A program made the position numbers and the translations under genes. Source: Kosakonia cowanii JCM 10956 = DSM 18146 (GTDB lineage Bacteria; Pseudomonadota; Gammaproteobacteria; Enterobacterales; Enterobacteriaceae). Taken from it: a DNA stretch of 64,000 bases. The notes under the pieces are model-generated. The model was not told where the DNA came from, did not search any database, and saw nothing but the letters and a program-made list of their open reading frames with translations. This document shows positions 51,539 to 55,506 of this stretch, piece after piece. How positions within the stretch are numbered: the first letter of the stretch is position 1; the number at the start of each line of letters is the position of its first letter. The stretch lies in assembly GCF_001975225.1 (NCBI RefSeq), contig NZ_CP019445.1:2356001-2420000 (forward strand), given 5' to 3'.

Positions 51539-52210
51539 TTAACGTCGGTGCGCCAGGCGGCGCACCAGCCTCTCTCCTGCCATCTGCACGCCCTGCACCA
51601 GCACCACCAGAATCACCACCGTCCCGACCATCACCTGGTCGTTAAAGCGTTGATAACCATAACGGATAGCAAGATCGCCCAACCCGCCGCCGCCAATAAC
51701 TCCTGCCATCGATGAGAAACCAATCAGCATCACCACCGTCAGCGTAATGCTCGCCAGCAGCGAGGGGAGCGCTTCGGACAGCAGCGCTTTGCCAATCACA
51801 TGCCACAGATTGCCGCCCATCGAGAGGATCGCTTCGATACGGCCATACTCCACCTCATCAAGGGCGTTTTCCGTTAAGCGCGCAAAGAAGGGAAAGGCAC
51901 CAATGGTGATTGGCACAATCGCCGCCGTGCTGCCTAGCGTGGTGCCAATCAACAGGCGGGTGAAGGGGATCAGCGCAATCAGCAGCACAATAAAGGGCAG
52001 CGAGCGGCCGACATTGACGATGCTGCCGAGTACGGCATTCAGCGTCGGCATCGGTGCCAGGCCATTGCGGCGGGAGATAAATAACAGCACGCCAAGCGGC
52101 AGGCCAATCAGCACCGTAAAGAGCGCCGCCAGCCCGACCATATAGAGCGTCTCTAGCGTGCCGTTCACTAGCAGCGGCCAGAGTTCGTCCCAACTCATGC
52201 CACCACGCAT
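51539..52210 (-). CDS. MetI-like ABC transporter permease
   Basis: A 223-residue permease with five to six membrane segments. It is similar to MetI along its length ([48 protein letters not shown]). The EAA-type coupling loop is [27 protein letters not shown]. The start at 52210 is preferred because GGGAGGCC lies 5 bases upstream. A start at 52198, forming an ATGA overlap with the ATPase gene, is also possible. It is last in the oxygenase-MetQ-MetN-MetI operon. The substrate is probably a methionine-like or other sulfur-containing amino acid, by family only. Confidence 0.87.
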
Positions 52211-52986
52211 AATGGCCTCCCGTTAAAACCGTGGCGGGCAAGAAACGCCTGCTCGCTTTGCGGATCGTGTAACAGCGACTGGCGCAGTTTCGACCGTGGT
52301 GTCATCAGCAGATCGGCGATTTTGCCATCCTCAACCAGCTCGCCATCCTCCAGCAGCGCCGCGTGATCGCAGAGGGTTTTCACCACCTCCAGCTCATGGG
52401 TGATCAGCACAATCGTCAGATTGAGCTTCTGGTTGATATCCGCCAGCAGCGACAGCACCGAGGCGGTGGTTTGCGGATCGAGGGCGCTGGTCGCTTCATC
52501 GCACAGCAGCACCTGCGGCCGGGTAGCCAGCGCGCGGGCGATGCCGACGCGCTGTTTCTGCCCGCCGGAAAGCTGCGAGGGGTAAGCGTGCGCTTTATCG
52601 CTCAACCCCACCAGCCACAGCAGTTCCTCAATGCGTGACTGGCGCTGCGTTTTCGGCACGCCGGCAATCTCCAGCGGCACGGCGATGTTTTGCGCCACCG
52701 TGCGGGCATGAAGAAGGTTGAAGTGCTGGAAAATCATGCCGGTACGCAGGCGGTGCGCGCGCAGCCCGGCGTTATCAAGCCGGGTGATGTCGCAGCCGTC
52801 GACGATAATGCGGCCCGCCGTGGGCCGCTCCAGCAGATTAAGGCAGCGGATCAGCGTGCTTTTTCCCGCACCGCTGCGCCCAAGGATGCCGTAGATCGCC
52901 CCCTTCGGTACGTGCAGCGAGAGATCCTTTAATGCCGGTCGGCCTGTTCCGGCATAGATTTTACTCAGCCCTTCGATGGCAATCAT
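52195..52986 (-). CDS. MetN-like ABC transporter ATPase without the NIL domain
   Basis: A 263-residue ABC ATPase. It has Walker [17 protein letters not shown]-loop MIFQHFNLL, signature [16 protein letters not shown], Walker [13 protein letters not shown] and switch His in LITHELEVV. It matches MetN but stops after the ATPase domain, where canonical MetN (343 residues in E. coli) adds a NIL/ACT-like domain that binds methionine and shuts the transporter. Its loss implies the importer is not inhibited by internal methionine. It overlaps the upstream binding-protein gene (ATGA) and the downstream permease gene. Confidence 0.88.
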
Positions 52987-53789
52987 GACTGCGGCGCGAC
53001 CGGGATCACCGAACCGTGATAACGCTTGCGAATAAACTCGGCCACCTGCGGTGAGGTGAGATCTTTCGCCAGCGCGTTGATGCGCGGATCGTTGGCAAGC
53101 TGTGGCGTGGTGACCAGAATATTGGCGTAGGGGTTATGATCCGCACTCTCCAGCCCCAGCGCATCTTTTGCCGGCGTTAGCCCCGCTTCCAGCGCATAGT
53201 TGCCGTTGATCACTGCCAAATCGACATCATCCAGCGAGCGCGGGATCTGCGGTGATTCGATCTCAAGGATCTTCAGGTGCTTCGGGTTTTCAGCGATGTT
53301 TTTCGGCGTCGCCTGGGTGGTGGCCGGATCGGTAAATTTAGCGTCGAGTTTTATCAACCCCTGGCTTTGCAGCAGAAACAGCGCACGGCTGAGGTTGGTG
53401 GGGTTATTGGGCACGGCAACGGTGGCGTTATCCGGCAGCGAGGTAAAGTTTTTGTATTTGCGCGAGTAGATGCCCAGCGGCTCAATATGCACCGTTGCCG
53501 CCACGGCAAACGGCTTGCCAAGTACCTTCTCCTGATCTTTCAGGTAGGGCAGGTGCTGGAAGTAGTTGGCGTCGACGTCGCCATTTGCCAGCAGTTCGTT
53601 GGCATTCGCGCCGTTGCTCAGCTCCACCACTTGCAGATCGAGTTTCGGATCGAGGGTTTTGATGTAGTTAAGGATCTCGGCGTGCGGTACCGGGTCGGCG
53701 GCGACACGTAAGGGCGTGGCCTGGGCGGCGAAGCCCGCCAGCGAGAGAGACAGCGCGGCACCTGCCAGCGTCAATGCGACATATTTCAT
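52983..53789 (-). CDS. MetQ/NlpA-family periplasmic substrate-binding protein
   Basis: A 268-residue binding protein with a standard signal peptide (residues 1-25, cleavage after QATP-type AQA). There is no lipobox cysteine, so unlike E. coli MetQ it should be soluble in the periplasm. Family blocks include [27 protein letters not shown] and [15 protein letters not shown]. The last is the region contacting the bound amino acid in MetQ. It lies between the oxygenase gene (22 bases upstream) and the ATPase gene. The ligand is probably methionine, its sulfoxide or another sulfur compound; this is inference. Confidence 0.87.
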
Positions 53790-53811: not shown

Positions 53812-54840
53812 TCAGGCGATCAGCTGTTCTGTGCGGCTGCGCAGCACATCGCGGTAGTAGCGTTCCGCCACGTCCGGGTGGGATCGCAGGCGGCCTTTCA
53901 GGTAGTTCCAGCCCACATCACGCAGAAGCGGGTTGAGCGGATCGCTCTCCGGCCCGCGCGCCTCCTCTGCCAGATGAGGGGGAAGGGTATAGAGCGGCAC
54001 ATTGGCTTCCAGCTGCGCGCCGAGGAAAAAGGCGATGGAGAGGCGCTCGCGATCCGCTGGAGGGGAAACCACCCGGTGCACGGTAGCGCGCAGATAGCCG
54101 TTGGTCGCCAGCTCCAGCAGTTCGCCGATATTGACCACAAAACTGCCCGCCCGCGGCGCTGCGTCGATCCAGCGATCGGGTGCGACCTCGACCTGTAACC
54201 CTTTTTGCTCATCCTGCAGCAGGAAACTGAGGAAACCGGAATCTTTATGCGCCCCGACGCCCTGCGCGCTCTGTGTGGCGTGCTGGCCGGGATAGCGGAT
54301 CAGTTTGATGTGCTCGTTAGGCTTGCTGCCATACAGCGCGTCGAACGCATCGGCGGGAAGTTGTAGCGCTTCGGCAAAGGCGCGCAGCAGGCGCAGCGCC
54401 ATCGATGTCATGGCGCGTTGCCAGTCGAGCAGGGCCGGCTTCAGCGTCGGTAAGGCGTCTGGCCATAAATTTGGCCCCTGTAACCGCCGCCAGCGCGGAT
54501 CGCTGTCGCTCAGTAACAGCGCCGGGCGCTCGGCGCCGATATCGAACTGTTCACGCCAGTCTGGCTGGCCGCGTGTGATCTCCGATGCGGCGCGGTTATA
54601 GCCGCGAAAGTGGGGCGAGTGGATCATCGCTACCTGCTCTTTTTGCGCCTCGGTGAGGGCGAAAAAGCGGCGCGCTTCACGCTGCACGGCATTCTGTAAA
54701 GCGTCATCGACGCCGTGGTTAATCAGGTAGAAAAAGCCGATGTCGCGCGCGGCGTGGCGCAGGTCGGCGAGGAAGGCATCGCGTTCAGCGCTGCTGGTAT
54801 AACGGGCGAGATCGAGAACCGGTAAGGTGGCTGCGTTCAC
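53812..54840 (-). CDS. 2-oxoglutarate/Fe(II)-type oxygenase of the isopenicillin N synthase family
   Basis: A 342-residue non-heme iron oxygenase. The iron-binding facial triad is His198-Asp200 (GVGAHKDSG) and His255 (RATVHRVVS). The co-substrate-binding RxS motif is Arg266-Ser268 (RERLS). The DIGFFYLINHGV block marks the N-terminal DIOX_N region. The start is GTG at 54840, after GCGGAGAAAACA. It heads an operon with a MetQNI-like importer, so it probably oxidises the imported sulfur compound, perhaps to release sulfur. Its first codons overlap, in another frame, a cysteine-rich short ORF that may regulate the operon. Confidence 0.87.
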   Translation of the reverse strand: MNAATLPVLDLARYTSSAERDAFLADLRHAARDIGFFYLINHGVDDALQNAVQREARRFFALTEAQKEQVAMIHSPHFRGYNRAASEITRGQPDWREQFDIGAERPALLLSDSDPRWRRLQGPNLWPDALPTLKPALLDWQRAMTSMALRLLRAFAEALQLPADAFDALYGSKPNEHIKLIRYPGQHATQSAQGVGAHKDSGFLSFLLQDEQKGLQVEVAPDRWIDAAPRAGSFVVNIGELLELATNGYLRATVHRVVSPPADRERLSIAFFLGAQLEANVPLYTLPPHLAEEARGPESDPLNPLLRDVGWNYLKGRLRSHPDVAERYYRDVLRSRTEQLIA

Positions 54841-54910
54841 TGTTTTCTCCGCAAATAGTCGATAAAGGGGGATGTGTCAGGTTCAGGGTTGGGCGGCAAC
54901 AACAACGCAT
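54785..54910 (-). CDS. Putative cysteine-rich leader peptide upstream of the oxygenase-transporter operon
   Basis: A 41-codon ORF begins with ATG at 54910, six bases after a perfect AGGAG. It reads Met-Arg-Cys-Cys-Cys-Arg-Pro-Thr-Leu-Asn-Leu, with codons TGT TGT TGC at positions 3-5, and one further Cys before the end. It runs into the oxygenase gene, overlapping its GTG start (54840) out of frame and stopping at 54785-54787. A strong ribosome binding site, early cysteine run and overlap with a sulfur-related operon suggest a regulatory leader. Ribosome pausing at Cys codons under cysteine shortage would alter downstream expression. Polycysteine leader ORFs acting this way are known in mycobacteria. 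Confidence 0.6.
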   Translation of the reverse strand: MRCCCRPTLNLTHPPLSTICGENSERSHLTGSRSRPLYQQR

Positions 54911-55066
54911 GATCGTCTCCTGTTAGCGGGTTTAACTCAGCTTGCCTCAGGCGAGAAAAATGAACCAATAACCTTCTTTTCTAATTTATGACCGCGCAGG
55001 ATCATGTGCTTTTGCGAAAAACGCATAACGCGCGCTGCTTGAAATGGCGACACATCTCCGATAGAC

Positions 55067-55087
55067 TTTTGTTATGTTATAACAAAA
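55067..55087. promoter_or_regulatory. Zur box upstream of rpmE2-rpmJ2
   Basis: TTTTGTTAT, GT, then TATAACAAAA form a near-perfect palindrome around GTTATGTTATAAC, matching the enterobacterial Zur consensus (GTTATANTATAAC). It lies 15 bases before rpmE2. Zur with zinc should repress the pair when zinc is plentiful. Confidence 0.85.
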
Positions 55088-55101
55088 CAGATGAGTAAAT
55101 T

Positions 55102-55362
55102 ATGCGACCTGATATCCATCCCCATTACCGCACCGTGGTGTTTCACGACACCAGCGCCAACGAATACTTCAAAGTGGGTTCGACCATCCGAACGGATCGG
55201 GAAATTGAGCTTGAAGGGGTGAAATATCCCTATATCACCATTGAGGTCTCGTCTGCGTCGCACCCTTACTACACCGGTAAGCAGAAAGTGATCTCCAGTG
55301 AAGGCAGCGCGGCGCGGTTCCAGCAGCGCTATGGCCGGTTCTTTAACGATAAGAAGGCGTAA
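55102..55362 (+). CDS. rpmE2: Type B (zinc-free) 50S ribosomal protein L31
   Basis: An 86-residue L31 paralogue ([20 protein letters not shown]) that lacks the zinc-binding CxxC pairs of ordinary L31. Under zinc starvation it replaces the zinc-containing L31 on the ribosome so that zinc can be recovered. Conserved blocks are [14 protein letters not shown] and [11 protein letters not shown]. The ATG at 55102 gives the family length. It is followed after 3 bases by rpmJ2 and preceded by a Zur box. Confidence 0.96.
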
Positions 55363-55365
55363 ACT

Positions 55366-55506
55366 ATGCAGGTACTCAATTCATTGCGCAGCGCAAAACA
55401 ACGCCACCCTGACTGCCAGATTGTCCGGCGCAAGGGGCGTATCTATGTGATTTGCAAATCGAACCCGCGCTTTAAAGCGGTGCAGGGTAAGAAGAAGAGA
55501 CGTTAA
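55366..55506 (+). CDS. rpmJ2: Type B (zinc-free) 50S ribosomal protein L36
   Basis: A 46-residue L36 paralogue ([34 protein letters not shown]). Like its K-12 homologue YkgO it has 46 residues and lacks the full zinc ribbon of ordinary L36. It starts 3 bases after the rpmE2 stop codon, so the two are one Zur-controlled operon. The last bases overlap the stop codon of the convergent acetyltransferase gene. Confidence 0.95.

Follow-up and report, generated by a model that had tools for sequence, protein, structure and literature searches.

Does the short cysteine-rich open reading frame (ORF) that lies across the start of an iron oxygenase gene in Kosakonia cowanii JCM 10956 = DSM 18146 control that gene, and if so in response to what signal? 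The window, by which we mean the whole stretch of 64,000 nucleotides that was analysed (contig NZ_CP019445.1, positions 2,356,001 to 2,420,000), carries this ORF on its minus strand at 54785..54910. It comprises 41 codons, begins MRCCCRPTLNL and ends with TGA; its full translation is MRCCCRPTLNLTHPPLSTICGENSERSHLTGSRSRPLYQQR. A Shine-Dalgarno sequence, AGGAG (54917..54921, minus strand), is located six bases 5' of the ATG, and codons 3-5 (54896..54904, minus strand), the proposed stall site, read TGT TGT TGC. The ORF overlaps the oxygenase GTG (54840) in a different frame, and the last base of its stop codon is base 56 of the oxygenase gene. An earlier note on this DNA had described both the minus-strand ORF, with its ribosome-binding site and Cys codons, and the out-of-frame overlap, and all of these were confirmed on the sequence. 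When the window's own upstream region (-150 to +60) was dinucleotide-shuffled 20,000 times, three consecutive Cys codons within the first 8 codons of an ATG arose 5 times, and never in combination with a four-base Shine-Dalgarno motif. The peptide matches no family in Pfam or NCBIfam, a protein search with the leader of one relative (L061) returned a single unnamed predicted protein, and the segment 54600-55150 gave no Rfam match near the gathering score.

The overlapped gene (53812..54840, minus strand) is the first of its operon and encodes a 2OG-Fe(II) oxygenase with the domains PF14226 and PF03171 (DIOX_N and 2OG-FeII_Oxy). Its best PDB relative by sequence is 9ovh (E 2.8e-53), a 2-oxoglutarate-dependent ethylene/succinate-forming enzyme, and the nearest named locus, also from Kosakonia cowanii, has an oxygenase that is 97% identical. 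Downstream on the same strand follow genes for a MetQ/NlpA-like substrate-binding protein (52983..53789, PF03180), a MetN-like ABC ATPase (52195..52986; best NCBIfam model TIGR02314, under its cut-off) and a MetI-like ABC permease (51539..52210; NF008049, just under its cut-off). The oxygenase does head a MetQNI-like operon, as had been claimed. The further label of a sulfur-type oxygenase was apt as regards the iron oxygenase domains and looser as regards sulfur, since the protein has no match in NCBIfam. In 72 of the 80 named loci, and in L079 as well, metQNI follows the oxygenase. The Sodalis copy (L107), which has a leader, is adjoined by a convergent gene of the cystathionine gamma-synthase/lyase family, and the Serratia copy (L118), which has a different mini ORF considered below, by a convergent gene of the cystathionine beta-synthase type; both matches fall below curated cut-offs. 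Circumstantially, an organosulfur compound suggests itself as the substrate of oxygenase and importer. The divergent neighbours in the window (55102-55506, plus strand) encode the type B ribosomal proteins L31 and L36, and genes of this type are usually zinc-responsive.

To compare upstream regions, relatives were collected by means of the oxygenase. The search was positive in 30 of 97 relatives (E 1e-60) and in 113 of 392 genomes of the family (E 1e-80); the gene was also found in 333 stretches of named genomes, from which 80 loci were retained. With 16 oxygenase places in family genomes left out and the window included, this gave 190 loci and 147 non-identical upstream regions. By blastn the oxygenase gene had no match in 5,426 E. 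coli genomes, which may explain why the leader has escaped notice. A leader was called when an ATG outside the oxygenase frame was followed by C.C or CC within the first 12 codons, and where several ATGs fitted, the one with the best Shine-Dalgarno motif was taken. This rule demands a non-oxygenase frame and early cysteines, so part of the conserved features reported below is built in. L259, a chance CPC with its start within the oxygenase region, was taken out of the leader count, and L029 is included by its motif and not by the rule.

On this basis the 147 regions divide into 95 with a polycysteine leader, 11 with another mini ORF (M-[LF][IV][IL]-RLY) at this position and 41 with neither. 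Leaders were found in Kosakonia, Klebsiella, Raoultella, Phytobacter, Trabulsiella, Kluyvera, Buttiauxella, Cedecea, Brenneria and Sodalis, among other genera. Their presence tracks the oxygenase tree (FastTree, 146 oxygenases), with 8 changes compared with 42.8 in shuffles, and in the core clade of this tree a leader accompanies 76 of 80 rows. The pattern that the earlier note had proposed to look for, in which the start codon, Shine-Dalgarno sequence and Cys codons are kept while the rest drifts, was found in these 95 regions and 76 rows. In the four leaderless members of the core clade (L067, L068, L088, L090) the oxygenase ATG lies directly 3' of a Shine-Dalgarno sequence. They look like regions from which the leader was excised, with the upstream box described below kept, exactly in three and in changed form in L088, and they appear as if they were natural leader losses. 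Since 52 of the 147 regions, these four among them, are without a leader, it must be dispensable.

The second mini ORF (M[LF][IV][IL]RLY...), likewise out of frame with the oxygenase, occurs in Serratia and another lineage (L118, L119, L123, L018, L182, L185, L187, L251, L023, L247 and L249). Two regions, L248 and L250, in which the peptide reads MFVIRLYCCP, link it to the polycysteine leaders, and it is possibly a leader with another signal. In L053 an insertion, presumably an ERIC/IRU element, separates the leader from the oxygenase Shine-Dalgarno sequence (about -145 to -20), and the leader ends at 19 aa.

What has been kept within the leaders? They carry 2-5 Cys codons shortly after the start, the first of them at codon 3-7 (90 leaders). 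A run of three Cys codons is present at -140 to -35 in 69 of the 147 regions and is in frame with the leader ATG in 67 of these. The exceptions are L029, which also begins MRCCC but precedes a shifted gene start, and L095, in which the run is out of frame and the leader has two in-frame Cys codons. Frame 0, omitted by the rule, was checked separately and held only L029 and one chance-like ORF (L264). The agreement between run and ATG, together with the emptiness of frame 0, provides a check that is independent of the leader rule. An overwhelming majority of leaders (88 of 94) lie in frame 2 relative to the oxygenase and extend past its start, as do 27 of 31 sequence clusters, and in 84 of 90 the leader ends 29-62 nt beyond the first aligned oxygenase codon. 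Six (L053, L103, L109, L176, L177, L191) stop before or at the oxygenase start. That start is RTGA in 89 of 90 cases, so that frame 1 would tend to bring the end of a leader onto it and to couple the two; no more than 3 of 94 leaders use this frame, and an exact end at the oxygenase ATGA was seen once (L191). The spacing is also narrow: a distance of 58-67 nt separates the first Cys codon from the oxygenase start in 84 of 94 leaders. TGT accounts for 235 of the 284 leader Cys codons (TGC for 49), compared with 70 of 287 in metQNI (TGC for 217). A motif resembling a Shine-Dalgarno sequence (at least GAG, GGA or AGG) precedes 93 of 94 leaders and has at least four bases in 81 of 94. Past the Cys run the peptide drifts, and it may be as short as 13 aa (L177), as against 41 in the window. 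Cysteines spaced as C..C occur within the first 15 residues of 17 leaders; the other 77 of the 94, the window leader included, have none there. At the level of sequence, the comparison raises the polycysteine leader well above chance, and its conservation matches that which would be expected of a switch responding to cysteine shortage.

In the minimum-energy fold of the window a hairpin is predicted, in which a 5' arm (54893..54909, minus strand) made up of the leader start, the Cys codons and the next bases pairs with a 3' arm (54832..54852, minus strand) that contains the oxygenase Shine-Dalgarno sequence (GGAG, 54850-54847) and GTG start. Statistics on this structure leave out L053 and, because the sequences are related, their P values overstate the independent evidence: the unpaired value for the oxygenase Shine-Dalgarno sequence and start was 0.40 as against 0.49 in shuffles (P 5e-7, n = 89 of 90), it rose to 0.55 as against 0.53 when the Cys segment was covered (P 3e-8 for the difference, n = 89), and pairing with the 15 nt 3' of the Cys codons was 0.21 as against 0.06 (n = 89); among 31 cluster representatives, arms paired at -14.1 kcal/mol with their own partners and at -12.8 with permuted arms of other clusters (P 0.0018), and a swap test gave P values of 0.021 and 0.069 in two paired tests and 0.046 for the post-Cys arm alone. 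In the window itself, covering raised the unpaired value from 0.48 to 0.63 (0.51 to 0.54 in shuffles). Covering the Cys segment opened the start by at least 0.10 in 58 of 93 leaders and closed it instead in 7. Four leader groups were defined by peptide pattern, covering at most 80 of the 93 leaders; the mean opening was large for the Kosakonia/Klebsiella/Raoultella type (0.36 to 0.59, n = 34), whereas leaders from Cedecea and Buttiauxella showed no effect (0.50 to 0.52, n = 21). RNAalifold predicted zero pairs on the 82-sequence MAFFT alignment A1, from which 8 leaders were left out; we think this is because the pairing register drifts between clades. The whole-fold energy was not unusual, with z = +1.04 for the window and only L078 of the 7 regions below -3. 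Regions without a leader were slightly more open at the oxygenase start (0.49, computed for 34 of 37, compared with 0.40; P 0.013). As modelled, the hairpin is supported for leaders of the Kosakonia/Klebsiella type and not for those of Cedecea and Buttiauxella.

Upstream of the leader, at 54965..54984 on the minus strand, lies a box, TTAGAA-N8-TATTGG, that is conserved in relatives and is a possible promoter or activator site. Boxes of this form (N7-9) are present in 84 of the 147 regions, namely in 69 of the 94 that carry a leader and 15 of the 53 that do not. The Kosakonia genome holds no second exact copy, and the box was rejected as a regulon signal, as the one other match with a single mismatch (control 15) is at a place without the look of a promoter. 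An activator of the operon may bind there. Searches of 54700-55110 found no sigma-70 promoter on the minus strand and no terminator-like site, and the latter result makes transcriptional attenuation of the trp type unlikely. A pattern of Shine-Dalgarno sequence, ATG and two adjacent Cys codons had 38 matches in the same genome, against 7 in the reversed control; 30 were checked by script and 8 by their matched letters, two of these also in context. With a wider pattern of three Cys codons, 58 relatives were searched and the context of 11 candidates was examined among the matches listed. Among the matches examined in this genome and the 58 relatives, no other sulfur gene was preceded by such a leader; the patterns covered only Shine-Dalgarno sequences of the AGGA type, and this result is therefore no proof of absence. 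One candidate, L242 (MLCCCFFD), which is followed by a gene that we take to be malP, was put down to chance.

These findings lead us to propose, with a probability of roughly 0.75, that the ORF is a cysteine-responsive translational attenuator of the oxygenase-metQNI operon. With ample Cys-tRNA, ribosomes would traverse the Cys codons and continue, in a frame other than that of the oxygenase, across its Shine-Dalgarno sequence and start; in the gaps between ribosomes the Cys-codon segment would, in many lineages, pair with this same region. Traffic and pairing would both hold the start closed. When charged Cys-tRNA becomes scarce, a ribosome would stall at codons 3-5 and occupy the 5' arm of the hairpin. 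A stalled ribosome covers about 15 nt ahead, so with the spacing given above about 40 nt would be left free, which is room for a second ribosome to start on the oxygenase. The opened start would then permit more uptake and breakdown of a sulfur compound. The sign of this response, on at low cysteine, is taken from the type of operon, the Sodalis and Serratia neighbours and the mycobacterial precedent. A stall site and out-of-frame traffic that are so widely kept fit a translational switch, to which the hairpin would add in part of the lineages. The suggestion of the earlier note that stalling alters access to the oxygenase start agrees with frame, overlap and spacing and with the predicted pairing in Kosakonia/Klebsiella-type leaders; in Cedecea and Buttiauxella the hairpin is not supported. 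More tentatively, and at somewhat less than even odds, the leader may be a family-wide, independently evolved Cys-tRNA sensor of the Enterobacteriaceae and their kin, with two redundant translational means, out-of-frame ribosomes crossing the following start and Cys codons that base-pair with it, and with Serratia-like lineages having turned to the MLIIRLYG... leader.

The hairpin might be unneeded, if ribosomes translating the leader block the oxygenase start by themselves and an upstream stall lifts the block. Overlap and frame (88 of 94) are indeed more widely kept than the hairpin, and Cedecea/Buttiauxella-type leaders overlap yet show no opening. Nevertheless, pairing of a leader's own arms exceeds that of permuted arms (P 0.0018) and of shuffles, and the six leaders that stop before or at the start do not fit. 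Four of these six also have lower fold energies than the 85 others (P 0.005), a weak point because L103 and L109 at least are longer sequences and their starts are no less open (unpaired 0.32-0.55). We regard occlusion without a hairpin as a serious, if unlikely, account. A role of the opposite sign can also be imagined, in which reading of the leader melts the hairpin and raises oxygenase expression, so that cysteine shortage would lower it. Overlapping ORFs often couple, and L191 ends exactly at the oxygenase ATGA. However, just 3 of 94 leaders have the frame ending at the RTGA start, 84 of 90 end 29-62 nt beyond the first aligned codon and a sulfur-scavenging operon would call for the opposite sign, which makes coupling improbable.

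Three further explanations bear on the cysteines themselves. They might sense metal or thiol redox and not Cys-tRNA, and the usually zinc-responsive L31/L36 genes alongside, as well as the C..C spacing in 17 of 94 leaders, could be read in this way. There is also a model for it in the uORF CruR, which detects copper through a CXXC motif (PMC9426467). But 77 of 94 leaders, the window's included, lack C..C, none of the 94 has RAPP, the residues are among the first of the peptide and have not yet left the ribosome, and the importer downstream is MetQNI-like; we consider such sensing quite improbable. The TGT run could instead be kept only as a hairpin arm, its reading frame being incidental, and the preference for TGT over TGC in the leader (235 to 49), not seen in metQNI (70 to 217), is compatible with this; the run is in frame with the ATG in 67 of 69 regions, though, even in clades where the hairpin is not supported, and the idea is highly improbable. 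Finally, that the ORF encodes a functional small Cys-rich protein is scarcely credible, despite the conserved N-terminal RCCC: the remainder drifts, the whole peptide measures 13-20 aa in L109, L176, L177 and L053 (41 aa in the window), the C-terminal half is dictated by the overlap, and the database searches with the window and L061 leaders brought up nothing beyond the unnamed protein. The translational attenuator remains the reading that we prefer.

If it is correct, a translational cysteine leader extending from Klebsiella to Brenneria would act as a second layer beneath whatever transcriptional control of sulfur there is, and would suggest that an uncharacterised oxygenase has a role connected with sulfur. 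The textbook amino-acid leaders of enteric bacteria are transcriptional attenuators, and to our knowledge cysteine is absent from their list. Among open-licence papers we found no report of a cysteine leader in Enterobacteriaceae, and in that respect the novelty claimed in the earlier note stands; it is narrowed by the Cys-codon leaders of mycobacteria, other actinobacteria and alphaproteobacteria.

Several known systems share single traits with this leader. CruR is a Cys-containing copper uORF that heads an operon with an uptake gene and is marked by DUF2946, CXXC, RAPP and Rho dependence (PMC9426467). The leader described here likewise contains cysteines and heads an operon with an uptake gene, but of the CruR features the Pfam match, C..C in the window leader and RAPP (0 of 94 leaders) are all wanting. 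In toiL-topAI of E. coli, a ribosome stalled in a uORF is proposed to release a ribosome-binding site that is otherwise sequestered (PMC12121999). The same release is proposed here, also in Enterobacteriaceae, although toiL is described there as sensing ribosome-targeting antibiotics and our leader would sense an amino acid. The uORFC-8-2 motif 5' of cysS in Rhodobacterales is a uORF whose tandem Cys codons lie within a paired stem (PMC8632094). It too is a Cys-codon uORF in Proteobacteria, with a stem of the sort predicted here in part of the lineages; it is presented there, however, as a predicted transcriptional attenuator with an intrinsic terminator, and 54700-55110 yielded none.

A close likeness is to mycobacteria, where, reportedly (Canestrari et al. 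2020), a structure sequesters the downstream ribosome-binding site and a stalled ribosome opens it. Here such a predicted structure finds support against shuffles and swaps, none in Cedecea and Buttiauxella, and no alifold consensus. Cys-codon leaders are described in mycobacteria (PMC9094748, PMC4633059, PMC9031893) and predicted in actinobacteria (PMC1262725), and two of these papers depict mycobacterial polycysteine short ORFs as contiguous Cys codons 5' of other genes, in which elongation speed reports cysteine (PMC9094748, PMC9031893). The resemblance lies in a run of Cys codons in a short upstream ORF with proposed control of the gene that follows. A sulfur-gene context, as expected of cysteine attenuators, may be indicated by the MetQNI-like importer (72 of 80 loci plus L079) and, below curated cut-offs, by the cystathionine synthase-type neighbours of L107 and L118. 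The mycobacterial ORFs are reportedly leaderless and several per genome, whereas the present leader has a Shine-Dalgarno sequence (a motif of three or more bases in 93 of 94 leaders), was found at one operon, has its Cys codons near the start and usually overlaps the next gene out of frame. Read from its sequence, the putative leader would work like the mycobacterial attenuators, yet with a start that is not leaderless and in another phylum.
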